Positions 8,599 to 17,676 of a stretch of DNA of 64,000 nt are shown here, piece by piece. The stretch lies in the NCBI GenBank assembly GCA_021323735.1, contig JAJPKM010000048.1, positions 1 to 64,000 of the forward strand. Reading direction: 5' to 3'. Source of the stretch: Gammaproteobacteria bacterium (GTDB lineage: Bacteria; Pseudomonadota; Gammaproteobacteria; Steroidobacterales; Steroidobacteraceae). The translations under genes were made by a program, and so were the position numbers. Position 1 is the first letter of the stretch. Each line of letters opens with the position of its first letter. The notes beneath the pieces were generated by a model that saw only the letters and a list, made by a program, of their open reading frames with translations, had not been told where the DNA came from and did not search any database.

Positions 8599-10071
8599 TC
8601 ACCCGCTCAACGCCGGTAGCTCGAAGAAAAACGTTGTCGCAACCCCTGCGTCGGATTTGTAACCGATCTTTCCACCCATGCTCTCTACCAGGGCTTTGGC
8701 GAGGGTCAGACCCAATCCCATGCCGTCCTTCTGCCGGCAATCAGAGCTGTCGGCCTGGGAGAACCGATCGAAGATGCGCCGCTGAAAGGATGTCGATATG
8801 CCAGGACCGTGATCTGTGACGGAGACGCGCACAGCCCCCTCCGCGGCCGTCATTCCAATCTCAACCACACCCTGAACCAGCGAGAACTTCGTCGCATTCG
8901 ACAACAAGTTGCCGAGCACCTGCACAATTCGGCCGGCGTCCACCCGCGCCGCGATCTGCGGCAGCAGCGTGCAGATCTTCAGGCTGACCCGGCCGTTTTG
9001 CGCATATTCGAGATTCTCCGCGACCGCCCGTTCGACCAACGGCGCCAGCGCGTGATTGGCGAGATTGAGCACCGCTTTCCCCGATTCGATCAGCTGGAGG
9101 TCGAGAATGTCGTTGACCATTCGGGTCATACGATCGGTGTTCTGACAGGCGATCTGCACGAGGCGGACCGCCTTCTCGGGCAGCGCACCCGCGACGCCGC
9201 TGGCGACGAGTCCGAGCGAGCCGCGCATCGATGTGAGCGGCGTGCGCAACTCGTGGGACATCGTCGAGATGAACTCGCCCTTTATACGGTCCATCTCCTT
9301 GCGCGCACTAATATCCTGGATCTGCGACACCAAGTACTCGACCGAACCATCGGCCCTGGCCATCAGGGACACGCTTTGCAGCGTCCAAATGAAGTGTCCA
9401 TCCCTGTGCCTATAGCGTTTTTCCACCTGATACTTGCGGATGCCACCGGCGAGCATCTGCCGCACCAGCTCTGCGTCGGCCTCTCTATCATCGGGGTGCG
9501 TCACGCTTCCGATATCGATCTGCAGCAGCTCGGCTTCGGTGAATCCAAGCGTGTCGCACATTGCCGCGTTGACTTTGAGCCAGCGTCCGCCCGGCTCCGC
9601 CAGCGTCATGCCGATCGCGGAATGCTCCATCATTGCGCTTGCTCTTTCCTCCGCTTGCAAGCGCTCCCGTAGCGCGGCGTTCTCCCGGTTCAACCGCCTG
9701 ACGTTCAAGACGCGCGAAATGACGGGCAGCATGACGTTGAGCTTGAATGGCTTGAGTACATAGTCAGAGGCCCCGGCTCGCATCGCGCGCACGGCTGAGT
9801 CGATCGCACCATGGCCGGTCATTACGATGACGTTCAGGGTGGCATCGATCTTCTGACAGGCCTGGAGTAGAGCGATGCCGTTCATTTCAGGCATCATGAG
9901 GTCGGTGATCAGCAGATCAAACTGCTCGGCCCGCATGGCCAGCAGGGCCTGCTGCGGTGAACTGAAGCCGCGCGCGGCGTAGCCCTCGAGCTCCAGGGTC
10001 TCACACAACGCGCGCATCTGCGGCACCTCATCATCGACGATGAGAAGGCGGACTGGCGCGGCCTCATTCAT
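8599..10071 (-). CDS. REC-PAS histidine kinase
   Basis: A 490-residue cytoplasmic kinase with no membrane segment. An N-terminal receiver domain (residues 7-120, phospho-acceptor Asp57 in LLITDLMMP) is followed by a coiled linker, a PAS/PAC domain (about 143-258), a HisKA domain with His273 in MSHELRTPLTS, and an HATPase domain (N box NLLSNATKFS, G1 DHGPGI, G2 GMGLGL). A receiver placed before the kinase core suggests it is itself controlled by phosphotransfer. The ATG before NEAAPVR is chosen; a TTG 63 bp further up is open but unlikely. It is divergent from the EAL gene, with a 384-bp control region between them. Confidence 0.9.
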   Translation of the reverse strand: MNEAAPVRLLIVDDEVPQMRALCETLELEGYAARGFSSPQQALLAMRAEQFDLLITDLMMPEMNGIALLQACQKIDATLNVIVMTGHGAIDSAVRAMRAGASDYVLKPFKLNVMLPVISRVLNVRRLNRENAALRERLQAEERASAMMEHSAIGMTLAEPGGRWLKVNAAMCDTLGFTEAELLQIDIGSVTHPDDREADAELVRQMLAGGIRKYQVEKRYRHRDGHFIWTLQSVSLMARADGSVEYLVSQIQDISARKEMDRIKGEFISTMSHELRTPLTSMRGSLGLVASGVAGALPEKAVRLVQIACQNTDRMTRMVNDILDLQLIESGKAVLNLANHALAPLVERAVAENLEYAQNGRVSLKICTLLPQIAARVDAGRIVQVLGNLLSNATKFSLVQGVVEIGMTAAEGAVRVSVTDHGPGISTSFQRRIFDRFSQADSSDCRQKDGMGLGLTLAKALVESMGGKIGYKSDAGVATTFFFELPALSG

Positions 10072-10455
10072 GGAGTCTGTTCGGCTGCCGATGCCGCATT
10101 CGCGAAGGGTTCGAAGCGAATTCGCTCGCCCCAACGGGGCTCGATCCCATCTTTGCCATGTGCAGTCACACCCATCGCGAGCCTCCGCATTTCACACGTA
10201 TGCAGAGTGTCTGTCATACCCGGCCAACACGGCTGTCGGGAATTCTTTGACATCCGAGGTAATCGTCGCGAAAGCGTGACGTGGTGCCCGTCCAGCGCGG
10301 CCTCCCGATCGGCATGGGCCCGGGGGGAATGCGCTGTGTCAAAAATGCGACGCATTGCGCGTACCGTTCGACAATTGTCATATTTTTCCTTACATCATTG
10401 CCGTATTTTTCTCTGCACTCTGCGCGTTCGTCACGCAACATCCAAGGAGCGCGGC
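10072..10455. other. Intergenic control region between kinase and EAL gene
   Basis: A 384-bp gap between divergent signalling genes. In-frame upstream extensions exist on both sides but have no supported start. Two palindromes lie 77-112 bp before the EAL gene start, and the stretch 10375-10440 is AT-rich. I see no gene here. Confidence 0.6.
10344..10379. promoter_or_regulatory. Paired palindromes upstream of EAL gene
   Basis: AATGCG-A-CGCATT (10344-10356) is a perfect 6+1+6 palindrome. GACAATTGTC (10370-10379) is a perfect 10-bp palindrome. Their centres are about 25 bp apart, just upstream of the AT-rich leader of the EAL gene. This looks like an operator or dimeric regulator sites. No regulator can be named. 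Confidence 0.4.
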
Positions 10456-11358
10456 ATGGAGGATCAGATCAAGGTGCTGCTCGTCGACAATCGAGACACG
10501 GCGCGCGCGACGCCGAGTCGGCTCGAATCGGCTTTGGGCGATGCACTGCGGCGGCATGCCTTGAGTGTGCAATACCAGCCGCAGTACGAACTGCTCACCG
10601 GCCGGGGCTGCGGCGTCGAGGCATTGGCTCGCTGGATTCTGTGCACCGGTGAAAGCATATCCCCCGCGGTATTCATTCCGATGGCGGAGCGTTGCGGAAT
10701 GATTCACGACCTTGGGGCATGGGTGCTGCAGTCAGCATGCCAAGCGGCGATTGCGTGGTGCGGCCGGTCCGGCCGCAACTCCACGTTGTCCGTGAACGTG
10801 TCGGCACTGCAAATCGACGAACAATTCTGCCGTGTGCTCTACCACTCTCTCAAGCGCTCCGGTTTCCCCGCCAATCAGCTGGAATTGGAAATAACCGAGA
10901 GCGCGCTCGTTGCGAATACCGATATGACGATCGAATGCCTGAAAGAATGGAAGATGCTCGGCGTTCGAATTGCCGTAGATGATTTCGGTGCCGGCTACTC
11001 GAGCTTGAGCTATCTGTCGAGGCTACCCGTGGACCGCCTCAAGCTGGACCAGTCTCTCATTCAAATGATGACTTTGAATTCAAAAGGCGCCATCGTCATG
11101 CGGTCCATCGTATCGCTGGGCGCGGAGCTCGGCATCGATGTGATTGCCGAGGGTGTCGAGACCGAACGGCAATTGCAAATGCTGGGGGAACTCGGCTGTC
11201 CACGGGTACAAGGGTACCTGCTCGCGCGTCCCATGCCCGCTAATCAGGCGCAGGTCACCCTGAAGAAAGAGTGGGGGAATCGGCCCACGCCGGTATTTCG
11301 TTCCGGCAACGCCGTCCATGCCAAAGCCATGGGCGCCTCTCGCGACGCCGCATTGTAA
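10456..11358 (+). CDS. EAL-domain c-di-GMP phosphodiesterase
   Basis: A 300-residue cytoplasmic protein that would hydrolyse c-di-GMP to pGpG. The EAL domain (about residues 25-275) has every usual catalytic element: EALAR, Asn in SVNVSALQ, Glu in ELEITES, the DDFGAGYSS loop-6 motif, Lys-x-Asp in LKLDQSLI, Glu in AEGVET and Gln in RVQGYLLARPM. It should therefore be active. The start has AAGGAG six bases upstream. The first ~12 residues (IKVLLVDNRD) read like beta strand 1 of a receiver domain whose remainder is missing. It heads a probable operon with the GGDEF and HPt response regulators. Confidence 0.92.
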   Translation: MEDQIKVLLVDNRDTARATPSRLESALGDALRRHALSVQYQPQYELLTGRGCGVEALARWILCTGESISPAVFIPMAERCGMIHDLGAWVLQSACQAAIAWCGRSGRNSTLSVNVSALQIDEQFCRVLYHSLKRSGFPANQLELEITESALVANTDMTIECLKEWKMLGVRIAVDDFGAGYSSLSYLSRLPVDRLKLDQSLIQMMTLNSKGAIVMRSIVSLGAELGIDVIAEGVETERQLQMLGELGCPRVQGYLLARPMPANQAQVTLKKEWGNRPTPVFRSGNAVHAKAMGASRDAAL

Positions 11359-11385: not shown

Positions 11386-12438
11386 ATGCAAAGTGAAGAC
11401 TCAATAATTGAAGCCTCGGACGAATCGACACAAACGCTGCGCCTCGATCTACCGCACGCGCCTCGCGTACTGATCGTCGACGACGACCCTCAGGTGCTCG
11501 AACGCCTGGAAGAAATGGTGGCAGCGGAAGGCTATGACGTGAGCACAGCCACGAGCGGCGCCGCCGCACTGATCGCGCTGGAAGAGTTTCCCGCATCGAT
11601 CGTCATCACGGATCTGAGCATGCCGGCAATGAACGGTATGGACCTGTGCCGCCTAATCCGCGAACGGCCATCGCCTGGATACGTTTATATCGTGCTCCTC
11701 ACCGTCAAGGACGATGAGAAGGATATTCTGGCGGGCCTTGACGCCGGCGCGGATGACTATCTCAGCAAACGTACATCGGCGGCACTGTTCAAGGCGCGAT
11801 TGCGCAGTGCCAGGAGAATTTTGGCTCTGGAGCACTCTCTGACCGACGCCTTGGAGAAGAAGCGTCAGTTGGCCATGGCCGACGCGCTGACCGGCGTGTA
11901 CAATCGCCGCTACTTCATGCGGCACCTTGGCCGCGAGATCAAGCGTACGCAGCGCTTCGGGGGTAACGTCTCGTTGCTGTTACTCGACGTCGATCATTTC
12001 AAACGGATCAACGACACATACGGACATGCCGTCGGCGATATCGTGCTGCGGAAACTCACCAAAGAGATCGCCAAATGCCTGCGGCGCGAGACGGACTGGT
12101 GCGCGCGCCTGGGCGGGGATGAGTTTGCCGTTGTTCTCGAGGGTACCAAACCTGCCGAGGCGCGAATCTGCGCAGAAAAGGTCCGCCAGGCCATCGCGGA
12201 TGCCTCCGTCGATACCCCTTCGGGCTCCGTCCGCTTCACCGTCAGCATCGGTATTGGGGGCTGCGGAGAAAATACCCACAAAAATGCCGGGACCATCCAG
12301 GAACTCGTGGAGCTTGCCGATGCAAATCTTTACGCGAGCAAGGCGGGTGGGCGCAACCGCGTGACCTCCGCGAGCATGTGTGGGCACGGCGCGCGCGCGA
12401 ACCCGAGAGCCGCCCATTCCATGGTCGGATCATGGTGA
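11386..12438 (+). CDS. PleD-like response regulator diguanylate cyclase
   Basis: A 350-residue REC-GGDEF protein. The receiver (residues about 26-145) has the acidic pocket VDDD at 31-34, phospho-acceptor Asp76 in VITDLSMP, and a conserved Thr (LLTV); the usual Lys is at SK128. The GGDEF domain (165-330) has the intact signature GGDEF at 243-247 and an inhibitory I-site RETD at 234-237, exactly five residues before it. It should make c-di-GMP when phosphorylated and be product-inhibited. It follows the phosphodiesterase by 27 bp and overlaps the next gene by 7 bp, so opposite c-di-GMP activities are encoded together. Confidence 0.93.
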   Translation: MQSEDSIIEASDESTQTLRLDLPHAPRVLIVDDDPQVLERLEEMVAAEGYDVSTATSGAAALIALEEFPASIVITDLSMPAMNGMDLCRLIRERPSPGYVYIVLLTVKDDEKDILAGLDAGADDYLSKRTSAALFKARLRSARRILALEHSLTDALEKKRQLAMADALTGVYNRRYFMRHLGREIKRTQRFGGNVSLLLLDVDHFKRINDTYGHAVGDIVLRKLTKEIAKCLRRETDWCARLGGDEFAVVLEGTKPAEARICAEKVRQAIADASVDTPSGSVRFTVSIGIGGCGENTHKNAGTIQELVELADANLYASKAGGRNRVTSASMCGHGARANPRAAHSMVGSW

Positions 12439-13211
12439 CCCAGAAGCTGCGGTCGGTTCTGTACGTTGACGACGACCCGGATATTTGCGTGGTCGTGCAG
12501 ACAACACTCAGCCTGCTGGCCGGCCTGGAGGTGCGTACCGCCGCTTCGGGCCAGATCGGAATCGATTTGGCGTATGAGATGCGACCCGATCTGATCCTCA
12601 TGGACGTCATGATGCCCGGCCTGGACGGCCCGTCCACGTTCAAACGAATGCGCGAGAGCGCGCTGCTGGCCAACACTCCCGTCATATTCCTCACCGCCAA
12701 GGTGTTGCCCGCGGAGGTCGCGCATTTCTTTCACTTGGGAGCGATCGGCGTCATCGGCAAGCCCTTCGATCCTGAAAAACTGTGCGATGACGTGCTCGCT
12801 CTGTGGCAGAACATGGACACGGTCCGCGGCGCCACACCCGCTTGCAGCGGACCGGTCGCGGAGCGGGCGCAAGTTGACAAGCTGGCGGATAGTTTTCTTC
12901 GACGTGCGAGCAGCGATGTAGATCGTCTGCGAAAGCTCATCGAGCGAGCGCGTCTGGGCGATCAATCCGCGTACGGCGAAGCGGAACGAGTGGCACACTC
13001 GCTGCATGGCGCTGCGGCAATGTTCGGCTTCCCCGAAGTCAGCGCGTCGGGCGGTGTGATCGAGCATCTGGTAGAAAGCGCTCGAACTCGGACCTCCTGC
13101 GCCGGCTCGTTCGACGATACGGGCGTACTGCGGCAGCTGATAGATTGCACCGAGCGGCTCGCCCATGAGGTGGAGTCCGCGGGTCGAGCCACTCAGGCAT
13201 TTCAAGAGTAA
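12432..13211 (+). CDS. Response regulator with HPt domain
   Basis: A 259-residue two-domain phosphorelay protein. The receiver (residues about 7-125) has VDDD at 12-15, phospho-acceptor Asp58 in LILMDVMMP, Thr in FLTAK and Lys110 in IGKPF. The C-terminal domain (about 150-250) is a histidine phosphotransfer domain, with His189 in VAHSLHGAAAMFG. It has no DNA-binding or enzymatic output, so it probably shuttles phosphate among the cluster's kinases and regulators. The ATG overlaps the end of the diguanylate cyclase gene; a GTG one codon later is also possible. Its 3' end overlaps by 10 bp the convergent ethylene-receptor-like kinase. Confidence 0.88.
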   Translation: MVTQKLRSVLYVDDDPDICVVVQTTLSLLAGLEVRTAASGQIGIDLAYEMRPDLILMDVMMPGLDGPSTFKRMRESALLANTPVIFLTAKVLPAEVAHFFHLGAIGVIGKPFDPEKLCDDVLALWQNMDTVRGATPACSGPVAERAQVDKLADSFLRRASSDVDRLRKLIERARLGDQSAYGEAERVAHSLHGAAAMFGFPEVSASGGVIEHLVESARTRTSCAGSFDDTGVLRQLIDCTERLAHEVESAGRATQAFQE

Positions 13212-15568
13212 TTCAGCGGCAGGCAGGACAAAATGGTGGCCGCCACCTGCTCGGCAGGCATCTGCGACTTGGAGATCACGGCGGACGCCAACGAGTAGAT
13301 TTCGGGCGACACGGGGTCGGCGGTAAGGATGACGATGGGCAGCGAACGCCCGAGGCGCGGATTTCGCTCGACAAGGATGCCCGCAGTGGCGTCGTCCACA
13401 ACGACCAGTTCAAATTGCTCCTCCCGGATGAGCCGTTCCGCATCCTGCCAGCCTTGAGCCAGTACGAATTCGGTATTACCTGCCAAGCTCCTGCGGATGA
13501 TATCGATCAGCTGCACGTCGTCGATGACATACAACAGCCTTGGTGACGCGACGGCCTTAGGTAAGGGTTCATCGGCGGGGATCTGGAACGGCGTATCGAT
13601 TGTCGGTACCGTGGATACGGCGCCGCTTCGCGGGAGTTCCAGATAAAAGACCGTACCCCGACCGACCACCGTATTGAATCCGATCTGGCCACCCATGGCT
13701 TCCATGAGCTTTCGCGCAATACTGAGACCAAGGCCCGTTCCCTCGAATCGGCGCGTTGCGGACCCGTCGGCCTGAGCAAATCTCTCGAAGATGCGATCCT
13801 TGAATGCTTCTGGAATTCCAGACCCGGAATCCTCGACTTCTACTCGCAGAGTGGTTGCGCGCGCGCGGGCACGTATGTATACATTGGCGTCGGCAGGCGA
13901 GAACTTGGCCGCGTTCGACAATAGGTTCGTCATGACCTGCATCAGCCGGTCGGGATCGGCAATTACCTGCTCGTTGTCGGAACAGTCGTCGAGTACAAAC
14001 TTCACTGCATATTTCGCCGCATAACCGGAGTTCGCTTCGATCGATTGGCGGAGTACTTCCGTCAACGGAACACTGATCATCTGCAGGGCCAATTCCCCGG
14101 CCTCGAGTTTTCCGATGTCGAGAATATCGTTGATGATTCGCACCAGGCGACCGCTGTTCTCATAGGCGATGTTCACCATCGAGGCTGCTTTATGGGGAAG
14201 GGGTCCCAGCGCACCGGATCGCAACAGCCCCAGAGACCCGCTGATGGATGTCAACGGGGTTCTCAGTTCATGGCTGACCGTCGAAACGAAATCGCTTCTC
14301 ATTTGGTCGAACTCCCGACGCAGAGTCAGGTCAATGATGGAACTGAGAACGAAATCTCCCTCGGACGTGTGCAAGGGATTGAGCCCTATTTCTATGGGCA
14401 CCTCCGATCCGTCCTTTCGAAGGCCATAGAGATCTCTGCCCTCGCCCATGGGCCGCGCCTTCGGGGCGGCGAAGAACTCCTGGCGAAATTCCGGATGGCG
14501 CGCGCGGAATCGCTTCGGCACCAGCATTTCGATTTGCTGGCCCAGCAACTCCTCGCGCGTGTAGCCGAAGAGACTCTCTATTTGTGCGTTGACCAGCACA
14601 ATGGACCCAGACGCGCTCATCACCAGCATACCGGTCGGCGCGGCTTCGATGGCCAAGCGGAACTGTTCGACGGCATGCTTCAGATTAGTGATGTCGAAAT
14701 TGACGCCGAACATCCGAAGAGCTTTCCCGTCGGCGCCCAGCGAAATCTGCGACGCCCCCCGGAGATGCCGCACCGTGCCGTCCGGATGTATGACGCGAAA
14801 TTCCGTGTCGGATGCGCATTCCCCGCGCAGTGCGGCGGCCGATTCCTCGATGCACCTTTCGCGGTCTTCTGGATGCAGACGGTCCGCCCATATGGAGCAA
14901 GGCTGCTCTCCCTCGCGCGGCTCGTATCCGTAGAGCCGGAACATCTGCGCATCCCATTGCAGCCTATTGGTGGCCACATCCAAGTTCCAGAAACCCAAAC
15001 CGGCCGCATCCGCAGCGATCGCGAAGCGCGCGTTGTCTGCGGCCAATGTTCTGTTGAGGGCTTCGAGCTGCCGTGTGCGGTCCGCAATTCGGCGTTCAAG
15101 CGTTTCATTGTCCCTCTGCAGAGCTTCCTCCGCGCGAACGCGCGCGCCTACCTCGAGCTTCAGAGCCAGATTGGCGCTGTGCAGCGCCGATGAACTCGGC
15201 AACTTCAGCGCGGCGGGAAGGAATTTTATGAGAAGGATGGAGGTCAACACCGATACCAGAGCGGTAATTGCCTTGATGCCACCGGAGAGCCAGTACGCCG
15301 GGTGCCAAATTGTCCAAATATCCATCAGGTGCGTTGCGCTACAGGCAGCGATGAAGACTGCAAAGCACACGAACATTCGATTGAAGCGAGTATCGGTACG
15401 CTTCTTGACAAAGTAGACGAGAGTGATCGGAATCGACCAATAGGCAAGAGCAATCAGCGCATCGGAAATGATGTGTAACGCGAGAACGTTCGGCTGCCAC
15501 AGATAGCACATGCCATGTGGCATAAAGCTGTCGGCTGACAACTGTTGTGCAACAAAATAACTGCTCAT
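13202..15568 (-). CDS. Ethylene-receptor-like hybrid histidine kinase
   Basis: A 788-residue hybrid kinase. Residues 29-120 hold three transmembrane helices matching the ethylene-binding domain of plant ETR1: ISDALIALAYWSIP and FIAACSATHLMDIWT correspond to ETR1 ISDFFIAIAYFSIP and FIVLCGATHLINLWT. The ETR1 binding residues Asp25, Tyr32, Ile35, Pro36, Cys65 and His69 map to Asp36, Tyr43, Ile46, Pro47, Cys76 and His80. The Cys-x3-His pair ligates Cu(I) in plants. Next come a coiled coil (about 132-175), two PAS domains (about 180-295 and 300-415), HisKA with His432 in SHELRTPLTS, HATPase, and a short C-terminal receiver (about 690-788: VIDD, VVVDD, Lys near the end). The ATG before SSYFVAQQ is chosen over one 75 bp up. 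Confidence 0.92.
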   Translation of the reverse strand: MSSYFVAQQLSADSFMPHGMCYLWQPNVLALHIISDALIALAYWSIPITLVYFVKKRTDTRFNRMFVCFAVFIAACSATHLMDIWTIWHPAYWLSGGIKAITALVSVLTSILLIKFLPAALKLPSSSALHSANLALKLEVGARVRAEEALQRDNETLERRIADRTRQLEALNRTLAADNARFAIAADAAGLGFWNLDVATNRLQWDAQMFRLYGYEPREGEQPCSIWADRLHPEDRERCIEESAAALRGECASDTEFRVIHPDGTVRHLRGASQISLGADGKALRMFGVNFDITNLKHAVEQFRLAIEAAPTGMLVMSASGSIVLVNAQIESLFGYTREELLGQQIEMLVPKRFRARHPEFRQEFFAAPKARPMGEGRDLYGLRKDGSEVPIEIGLNPLHTSEGDFVLSSIIDLTLRREFDQMRSDFVSTVSHELRTPLTSISGSLGLLRSGALGPLPHKAASMVNIAYENSGRLVRIINDILDIGKLEAGELALQMISVPLTEVLRQSIEANSGYAAKYAVKFVLDDCSDNEQVIADPDRLMQVMTNLLSNAAKFSPADANVYIRARARATTLRVEVEDSGSGIPEAFKDRIFERFAQADGSATRRFEGTGLGLSIARKLMEAMGGQIGFNTVVGRGTVFYLELPRSGAVSTVPTIDTPFQIPADEPLPKAVASPRLLYVIDDVQLIDIIRRSLAGNTEFVLAQGWQDAERLIREEQFELVVVDDATAGILVERNPRLGRSLPIVILTADPVSPEIYSLASAVISKSQMPAEQVAATILSCLPLNYS

Positions 15569-15770
15569 GTCGTGCCGCCTAGCGCGACGCAACACCGGCG
15601 CGTACCATCCATGCGCATCCCTAAAGCCGCTCTCCCGGAACAATCATATCCCCATCGTTCGTCGTGCGATGTAGGTGATTCCCCTACGGCACGGCGGTAA
15701 AGTCGCCAGGGTTTCTCGCAATGAAATACCGCGTGTTCAAGATTCCTCCCTTACGGCCGATCCAGCGGCA

Positions 15771-16481
15771 ATGAGCTTGCATTCCATGACTGGGGGTGAC
15801 CCGGGAATCGGCACCCACACGAGAAGCGCCCGCACGCCGCCTGCCATCAGGGTCCTCGTGGTCGACGATCACTGCATCGTGCGCGCGGGAATCGAGACCC
15901 TCCTCGAAAGAGAACCCGGCATGAAGATCATCGGCTCCGCCGCAACGGGTGAGGAGGCCATATCCGTCGCTCGGCGGCTGAGGCCCGATGTCATCATCAT
16001 GGACCTGGTATTACCCGACTTCGACGGGATCGACGCCACCATCCGTATTCTCAGTGAATTGCCGCTCACAAGAATCATCGCGCTATCCGCGTGCCGCACT
16101 CCCGAACATGTGCTGCGTGCCATGCGCGCCGGCGTCAGGGGTTATGTCGTCAAAGCCGACGCCGGCGAGGAACTGATTCGAGCGGTCAACGCCGCCGTCG
16201 AAGGTAATCGCTATCTGAGTCCTGCAATAACCCCGTTGTTCACCGAGGGGTTGGTGGATCTGTCTGCGCCAAAGAGCCTGTACGAGCGCCTCAGCAGCCG
16301 CGAGCGTGAAGTACTGCGGTGCATAGTCGGCGGCTCCTCGAGCGCCGACATCGCGCAACAACTGTCGCTTTCCAGGAAAACCGTCGATACCTATCGCAGC
16401 CGAATGATGGTCAAGTTGGGCGTCGCCAATCGCTCCGCGTTGATTCGTTTCGCCATCGAACACGAGATGACCTCGGTGTGA
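15771..16481 (+). CDS. NarL/LuxR-family response regulator
   Basis: A 236-residue transcription factor. The receiver (residues about 26-145) has the pocket VDDH, phospho-acceptor Asp78 in VIIMDLVLP, and Lys in VVKADAG. The GerE/LuxR helix-turn-helix (about 168-230) reads LSSREREVLRCIV, then SADIAQQLSLSRKTVDTYRSR. It should bind DNA as a dimer once phosphorylated. It is divergent from the ethylene-receptor-like kinase, with about 200 bp between, and is the cluster's only clear DNA-binding output. The start is uncertain: ATGs at 15771 and 15786 and a GTG at 15675 are in frame; the longer form adds only unconserved residues. Confidence 0.88.
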   Translation: MSLHSMTGGDPGIGTHTRSARTPPAIRVLVVDDHCIVRAGIETLLEREPGMKIIGSAATGEEAISVARRLRPDVIIMDLVLPDFDGIDATIRILSELPLTRIIALSACRTPEHVLRAMRAGVRGYVVKADAGEELIRAVNAAVEGNRYLSPAITPLFTEGLVDLSAPKSLYERLSSREREVLRCIVGGSSSADIAQQLSLSRKTVDTYRSRMMVKLGVANRSALIRFAIEHEMTSV

Positions 16482-16620: not shown

Positions 16621-17676
16621 ATGGAAGACCTGGAACGTAGCGTAAGTACCAACACGAGCGCAGCCCCGCTCGATCATTCGGAGATTGCATTCGACGATAC
16701 CGACCTATCGAAACCCGCAGAGGAACGCCCCCACTGCCGGGTGCTCATCGTCGACGACGATGAACTGGTCAGGGCCCGCCTTTCCTGGCTTCTCAAGACC
16801 TTTCAATTCGAAATTGCCGTTGCCGCCTCTGCACAGGAGGCGCTGCGTATCATCAGCGAAAACCCCTGCCATATCGTTGTTACCGATTGGCAGATGCCCG
16901 ACATGGATGGACTGAGTCTCTGCCGCCATGTACGCAACGGCAGCAAAGACCGCTACGTCTACCTATTGATGCTCACCGTCAGGAACAACAAGGAGGACAT
17001 ACTGACGGGCCTCGCCGCCGGTGCGGACGACTATATTGTGAAAGGCGCATCCGTGCGCGAACTCATTGCCCGCCTGGAAGTCGCCCGGCGCATCACTTGC
17101 GTTGACAGCTCGCTCAGAACGGCCGATCGTGAAAATCGGTGCCTATCCCCGGCCGATTCGCCGAGCGGCGCACACAACTTGCACTATCTCGTTGAACACC
17201 TGCCACGCGAGCTTGGGCGCTCGCAACGCTATGGTCATCCTTTGGCTGTTCTCAGCTGCGAGATCGACGAGTTCAACCTCATCATCGAACGCTTCGGCCC
17301 CGTGGCCGGCGACGATGTATTGCGAGCGTTCGTGGCGCGCTCGGCAGGATGCATTCGCTCAACCAGCGACTGGCTCGCACAAACGGGCGAGCAGGAATTC
17401 ATGATCGTCCTGCCGGAAACTCCGGTGCGAGGCGCCCATCGTGTGGCGGAGAAGCTGCGTCAGATCTTGGCGACGGAGCCGGTCGCGACTCGGGCCGGTC
17501 CCATCCGCATTTCCGTGAGCATCGGCGTGACCGCCGTCGAGCCAAATCATGAACTCGATGCCTCGGTGCGCATCGGAGATATGCTGCGCGCTGCGGACCG
17601 CCATAACTCCACGGCCAACTTGTCGGCGTTCATCAAGTCGCCAAAGGCATGGCCGGGCGGCAATGGGATTAATTAA
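16621..17676 (+). CDS. Response regulator with degenerate GGDEF domain
   Basis: A 351-residue paralogue of the PleD-like protein 5 kb upstream. The receiver is intact (VDDD at 45-48, phospho-acceptor Asp89 in VVTDWQMP, MLTV, and Lys141 in IVKG). In the C-terminal domain the signature is GEQEF at 256-260 instead of GGDEF, and the I-site position reads STSD instead of RxxD. The metal-binding Asp of the family is present late in LSCEIDEFN, but the DxLT-type motif before it is lost. It probably does not make c-di-GMP and may act as a phospho-dependent effector or partner. It starts 139 bp after the NarL-type gene. Confidence 0.88.
   Translation: MEDLERSVSTNTSAAPLDHSEIAFDDTDLSKPAEERPHCRVLIVDDDELVRARLSWLLKTFQFEIAVAASAQEALRIISENPCHIVVTDWQMPDMDGLSLCRHVRNGSKDRYVYLLMLTVRNNKEDILTGLAAGADDYIVKGASVRELIARLEVARRITCVDSSLRTADRENRCLSPADSPSGAHNLHYLVEHLPRELGRSQRYGHPLAVLSCEIDEFNLIIERFGPVAGDDVLRAFVARSAGCIRSTSDWLAQTGEQEFMIVLPETPVRGAHRVAEKLRQILATEPVATRAGPIRISVSIGVTAVEPNHELDASVRIGDMLRAADRHNSTANLSAFIKSPKAWPGGNGIN

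Follow-up and report, generated by a model that had tools for sequence, protein, structure and literature searches.

The first 64,000 nucleotides of contig JAJPKM010000048.1 (assembly GCA_021323735.1), from a gammaproteobacterium of the family Steroidobacteraceae, hereafter the window, encode a hybrid histidine kinase with an N-terminal ethylene-binding domain (EBD), flanked by genes for putative phosphorelay partners. The kinase gene lies on the minus strand at 13202..15568, precisely where the preliminary description of this locus had placed it, and is intact, with 788 codons in a single open frame without internal stop and the sequence AGGCGG six bases 5' of its ATG start. Pfam analysis distinguished, from the N-terminus, an ETR1_N domain (residues 28-123; 15200..15487), a PAS_3 domain (residues 203-290; 14699..14962), a PAS domain (residues 301-405; 14354..14668), a HisKA domain (residues 423-491; 14096..14302) and a HATPase_c domain (residues 538-647; 13628..13957), all on the minus strand. 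The kinase core is complete, with the phospho-acceptor His433 within the motif SHELRTPL and the N, G1 and G2 boxes all present. The arrangement described earlier, a membrane EBD which would drive PAS modules, a kinase core and a receiver, is supported for this gammaproteobacterium. On its domain content, the product is a bacterial ethylene-receptor-type hybrid kinase, and EBD-histidine kinases of this kind are already known.

Convergent to the kinase gene, and overlapping it by ten bases, is a gene (12432..13211, plus strand) for a protein with Response_reg and Hpt domains (REC-Hpt), the Hpt histidine of which occurs in the motif AHSLHGAA. This gene overlaps by seven bases with that of a REC-GGDEF protein (11386..12438, plus strand) with intact GGDEF and RxxD I-site motifs, and an EAL-domain protein is encoded just upstream at 10456..11358 on the same strand (start chosen within the open reading frame 10153-11358). 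On its other side, the kinase gene is separated by a divergent intergenic region (15569..15770), the predicted RNA fold of which is ordinary, from the plus-strand gene of a REC-GerE response regulator of the LuxR/NarL type (15771..16481). The latter is followed by a second REC-GGDEF gene on the plus strand (16621..17676), the product of which is probably not an active cyclase, since its active-site motif is degenerate (GEQEF). Scans for promoters and terminators yielded nothing clearly above shuffled sequences.

The kinase is a mosaic, the two parts of which have different closest relatives. In a search with the whole protein, a gene from a genome of the same genus (G001, Gammaproteobacteria MAG bog_1200; locus L008 in PLET01000036.1) matched only from residue 121/122 onward, with 55% identity (368/675 columns) across window residues 122-785. 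The front end of the L008 protein is a bacteriophytochrome, comprising PAS_2, GAF and PHY domains in Pfam, while the window's own genome (96% complete) contains no match to the PHY domain. A kinase from another genus (G580; locus L078), which carries an EBD and one PAS domain, shares 64% identity (76/118) with window residues 1-120, whereas residues 181-300 barely align; the pattern is reversed against L008, with the switch at residue 120. The junction and the coiled-coil linker which follows it (residues 121-150; 15119..15208, minus strand) lie where the EBD kinase ceases to be the more similar protein and the phytochrome kinase takes its place. In a fourth relative, L077 in genome G032, a CHASE domain is found.

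The phylogenies of the two parts are likewise in conflict. A tree of the shared kinase portion (hereafter the chassis) was built from 29 rows, namely 28 hand-picked, mostly through de-duplication, from the best 75 of 100 hits, along with the window kinase 8599-10077. The window and L008 chassis are sisters in this tree (support 99/99), and a constraint placing the window and G580 EBD kinases together, a pair specified prior to tree building, was rejected (approximately unbiased test, p-AU 0.0019, two trees compared). In the EBD tree, from which six low-scoring rows and the Arabidopsis ETR1 row were left out, the window domain falls in a clade of five (99/92) with those of G580, G754 and G733, all of the same family, and of one proteobacterial metagenome-assembled genome. 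The simplest reading of these sequences is that a sensor module has been exchanged at the end of helix 3 of the EBD. An artefactual join of EBD and chassis through binning or assembly could be suspected in a draft genome of 58 contigs when the sister gene bears a different sensor, and yet it is very improbable, given that the gene is a single stop-free frame of 788 codons, that its G+C content (56-62%) shows no step at the junction, that the junction sits at a helix boundary and that a similar linker occurs in other EBD kinases, such as that of G580. What is new here is the locus, with an exchanged sensor on a conserved relay, rather than a bacterial ethylene receptor as such. No earlier report of such an exchange was found among the papers listed for ethylene receptors together with phytochromes or domain swaps, including PMC5812497 and PMC12172448.

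Linkage of EBDs and phytochromes was considered as a general rule and rejected, as a phytochrome-like gene occurs at only one of 67 EBD loci, that of G580. There, a second kinase, bacteriophytochrome-like and accompanied by a LuxR-type regulator of its own (L078:9381-12122), is divergent from the EBD kinase, so that light and ethylene sensors adjoin. Nor is it supported that L008 acquired its phytochrome from a neighbour like that in G580, the two modules being distant (~170 bits over ~500 residues). The genome with the phytochrome chassis also encodes an EBD protein (L076:6745-10407, G001), with Tyr in place of His80, Phe in place of Tyr43 and partial loss of the N-terminal motif described below. 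Homologues of the window LuxR-type regulator are encoded near this G001 gene, along with a homologue of its REC-GGDEF, and beside the G580 locus, behind the separate phytochrome-type kinase.

The ETR1_N domain of the window kinase matches the Pfam model with 127 bits (2.6e-37; curated cut-off 27), and is the only such match in its genome. It was aligned with those of the other collected proteins (75 rows, one partial) and with Arabidopsis ETR1. The six binding-site residues named in the preliminary description, Asp36, Tyr43, Ile46, Pro47, Cys76 and His80, occur at the positions given there, and Ile73, a seventh residue needed for binding, and Lys99 are also kept. Ile73 and Lys99 correspond to Ile62 and Lys91 of ETR1. 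Seven residues, Asp25, Cys65 and His69 among them, are described as required for ethylene binding in AtETR1 (PMC11819568, PMC6682694). The full set is not automatic within the family, as only 47/75 rows retain all seven; the Cys/His pair is found in 64/75. AlphaFold modelling of the EBD with eight sequences predicts three long helices (residues 26-56, 60-88 and 92-120), presumably membrane-spanning, and beyond them a separate helix of the coil, at a mean pLDDT of 81. A sequence-profile search recovered no solved EBD structure, and a fold search of the PDB gave no hit at E<=0.001.

Directly ahead of EBD helix 1 is a further conserved element, the motif PHGxCxxW (P17-H18-G19-x-C21-x-x-W24; 15497..15520, minus strand), which is presumably absent from ETR1. 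All five of its residues are present in 58/75 EBD rows, including 44/47 rows with the seven binding residues and 14/28 rows without them. Among the 69 rows scoring above 110 bits, the motif His is kept in 63/68, the Cys in 61/68 and the Trp in 68/69, while each copper ligand is kept in 65/69. Conservation of the motif in bacterial EBDs is comparable to that of the copper ligands. Its single cysteine has been proposed earlier, for cyanobacteria, to form a possible dimer disulphide (PMC6682694), while the linked His and Trp hint at more than a disulphide, perhaps copper loading.

Ethylene or copper sensing by the window EBD is plausible because it has the complete set of ETR1 binding residues and because the domain shares 49% identity over 115 residues with that of AzoEtr1 from Azospirillum brasilense, a heterotrophic proteobacterium, which binds ethylene in a radioligand assay (PMC11819568). 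The A. brasilense Sp7 protein used in this comparison (L137) is AzoEtr1, as the published primer site, the length of 525 codons and residues Asp35, Cys75 and His79 agree. On this evidence the window kinase quite probably binds ethylene. Alternatively, the domain may sense copper, or the redox state of its bound copper, with ethylene being incidental, as might be suggested by the retention of the Cys/His ligands in more rows than the full set of seven residues, and by the conserved His18 and Cys21, which could supply a second metal site. This alternative is unlikely, considering that the window EBD also has Asp36, Tyr43, Ile46, Pro47 and Ile73, on which ethylene binding by ETR1 depends, that the sensor domain of ETR1 is reported to bind Cu(I) with a Kd near 1e-15 M (PMC6586836), befitting a permanent cofactor more than a sensor, and that no copper-homeostasis family was matched among the seven neighbouring genes scanned with Pfam.

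ETR1_N matches above the cut-off were found in 22/396 genomes sampled from the order, 12/369 from the class and 28/398 from the phylum, each inclusive of the window genome. Five of the 23 genomes of the window's genus have the domain, with the other four domains located elsewhere in the EBD tree. The distribution is thus patchy yet not rare (3-7% of sampled genomes). The literature searched yielded no paper joining the ethylene-binding domain with gammaproteobacteria. The surprise expressed earlier at finding it in a heterotrophic gammaproteobacterium was overstated, with a heterotrophic proteobacterial receptor in print (PMC11819568) and ETR1_N in roughly 1/14 to 1/31 genomes.

The C-terminus of the kinase forms a diverged receiver (13214..13540, minus strand). 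Its catalytic positions Asp683/Asp684, Asp725, Thr749 and Lys767 are kept, and it can be aligned with the receivers of L008, L078 and L077, which have Asp683/Asp684, Asp725 and Lys767 in common with it and Ser at the position of Thr749. The earlier assignment of a receiver calls for one correction, in that the domain is too diverged for recognition by Pfam, with no Response_reg match to the C-terminal 110 residues even at E 5, and the loop after Asp725 is four residues shorter than in the aligned relatives. In a low-confidence AlphaFold model from two sequences (pLDDT 69), strands and helices follow one another as in CheY. A fold search with this model placed the CikA pseudo-receiver and the HP1043 regulator at the top; next came designed P-loop proteins and additional receivers, and no match attained E<=0.001. 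It is possible, if rather doubtful, that ethylene or a different small ligand is bound by the EBD, while the receiver is a pseudo-receiver and the kinase signals directly to a separate regulator, such as the LuxR-type protein or the REC domain of REC-Hpt. The missing Pfam match, the short loop and the CikA match are all compatible with such an arrangement, and the receiver of ETR1 is itself described as atypical in the corresponding loop (PMC13012798); the retention of the catalytic positions, and the Hpt domain of the partner, which would be expected only if fed by a receiver, speak against it.

The kinase gene lies tail-to-tail with a homologous REC-Hpt gene in the window, G001 and G580, while no homologue was found in the 14 kb of sequence surrounding L077, the fourth relative. 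REC-Hpt matches at E<=1e-28 were obtained in 17/217 genomes of the family, 11 of which span only the REC half (to query residue 162/260). In G762 and G747, homologues of REC-GGDEF and REC-Hpt are fused within a single open frame of 604 and 630 residues, respectively, which supports a working link between the two. These fusions raise the prospect of an output through cyclic diguanylate (c-di-GMP) from evenly poised to slightly favoured.

GGDEF genes are found within 5 kb of the EBD gene at 14/68 EBD loci, while 3.9 would be expected under uniform placement (binomial P 2.5e-5). This expectation is based on 6.0 GGDEF genes per Mb over 56 genomes; loci L009-L015 are counted among the 68, but their genomes fall outside the density figure. 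A specific EBD-GGDEF link is not claimed, as the loci are related and non-EBD kinases likewise occur near GGDEF genes. In 3/68 loci a GGDEF or EAL domain forms part of the open frame of the EBD itself. The EBD is fused straight to a GGDEF domain in a 511 aa protein of G044 (L091:5099-6631), with Asn in place of Asp36; in L158 and L161, too, GGDEF/EAL matches fall within the open frame of the EBD.

The window kinase resembles several known systems in part. AzoEtr1 is likewise a proteobacterial EBD kinase with the seven binding residues and an adjoining response regulator gene, whereas the window kinase has two PAS domains and a diverged receiver fused to it, and its gene converges with that of a REC-Hpt partner. 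AtETR1 shares the EBD with the same seven residues, the kinase-like core and the receiver, but incorporates a GAF domain and no PAS domain. Plant receptors are described as signalling mostly without histidine kinase activity (PMC11819568). SynEtr1/UirS of Synechocystis (slr1212) is also a membrane EBD kinase; it signals by phosphorelay, and its ethylene and light inputs are linked (PMC6682694, PMC5812497). According to the same sources, however, SynEtr1 combines the EBD and a cyanobacteriochrome in one protein, while the window and L008 proteins carry either an EBD or a bacteriophytochrome on one chassis. The L008 locus itself shares the homologous chassis and convergent REC-Hpt homologue with the window, and differs in the PAS_2-GAF-PHY photosensory module which occupies the place of the EBD.

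A mechanism can be proposed on this basis, in which we infer the ligand, the sign of the response and the output, and read the phosphotransfer steps from domain content and gene order. The N-terminal membrane helices would hold Cu(I) between Cys76 and His80, where ethylene most likely binds. Binding would be relayed by the coiled coil and the pair of PAS domains to the kinase, changing its activity, and autophosphorylation of His433 would probably be lowered, by analogy with AtETR1 (where this is reported), SynEtr1 (indirectly) and AzoEtr1 (predicted); the chances that ethylene inhibits the window kinase are considered even. Phosphate would pass from His433 to Asp725 of the kinase's own receiver, and the next acceptor would be the Hpt domain of REC-Hpt, encoded tail-to-tail with the kinase; a relay by way of REC-Hpt is fairly likely. 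From the Hpt domain it may reach the coupled REC-GGDEF protein, with c-di-GMP as an output that is marginally favoured, and perhaps also the divergent LuxR-type regulator. The gene itself would have originated through sensor-module exchange, as a chassis with a homologous REC-Hpt partner bears a bacteriophytochrome in the relative of the same genus. Taken as a whole, an ethylene-receptor-type kinase with a REC-Hpt relay and an exchanged sensor is a probable explanation of the locus. Several observations weigh against it: 28/75 EBD rows (one partial) are missing one or more of the seven residues, and the EBD fold can apparently outlive ethylene binding; the receiver may not be phosphorylated, since it has no Pfam match and a short loop after Asp725; GGDEF genes also occur near non-EBD kinases of this family (L080-L083, L086); and the EBD tree is short on columns, its bootstrap had not settled, and the genome is a fragmented draft.

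Stand-alone EBD proteins are encoded in two phage lineages. Pattern-based searches of IMG/VR, comprising one with the EBD alignment and two further scans, recovered a single viral contig each time (IMGVR_UViG_3300003267_000167), which encodes a 269-residue EBD protein (L212:9869-10678; ETR1_N 103 bits) with the seven binding residues and PHGxCxxW but no kinase, in the vicinity of Erf, RusA, helicase-methylase and terminase-small-subunit-like genes. With this protein as the query, six Maribacter phages (Molly_1 to Molly_5 and Colly_1) were found in eight records, while the window EBD itself had no match among 50,697 phage records, the phage proteins having surfaced through other queries. The Colly_1 protein (L214:2947-3816; ETR1_N 60 bits), a 289-residue 'hypothetical protein', retains Cys76 and His80, whereas Asn stands at the position of Asp36 and Ser at that of Pro47, and its gene is immediately upstream of an N-acetylmuramoyl-L-alanine amidase gene; the Molly_4 protein (L215:1462-2331) aligns similarly and has the same gene arrangement. 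That the Maribacter phage proteins are holin-like or act in the timing of lysis is only a guess. The literature searched for ethylene receptors in phage genomes gave no related report, judging by title.

The Discussion of PMC11819568 describes a decrease of c-di-GMP under ethylene in A. brasilense and states that its route is unknown. The window locus makes this question testable, as an EBD kinase and an Hpt carrier are encoded there side by side with a diguanylate cyclase and an EAL protein, and represents a candidate ethylene-to-c-di-GMP path. The exchanged sensor on a conserved relay, which the preliminary description could not have shown, is a more interesting feature than the presence of the EBD. 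The natural EBD/phytochrome pair on one chassis would allow the same relay to be driven by light or by ethylene and the outputs to be compared, and the junction after residue 120 marks a point where an EBD has been joined in nature to another kinase. More tentatively, the locus may represent one relay, with chassis and REC-Hpt retained, in which one input, an ethylene sensor or a red-light phytochrome, has been swapped for the other, with EBDs serving as portable cassettes that have reached phages too, in one lineage beside an endolysin gene. If this is so, and the REC-GGDEF step has been preserved too, one species would respond to ethylene and its sister to light with the same c-di-GMP and biofilm output.

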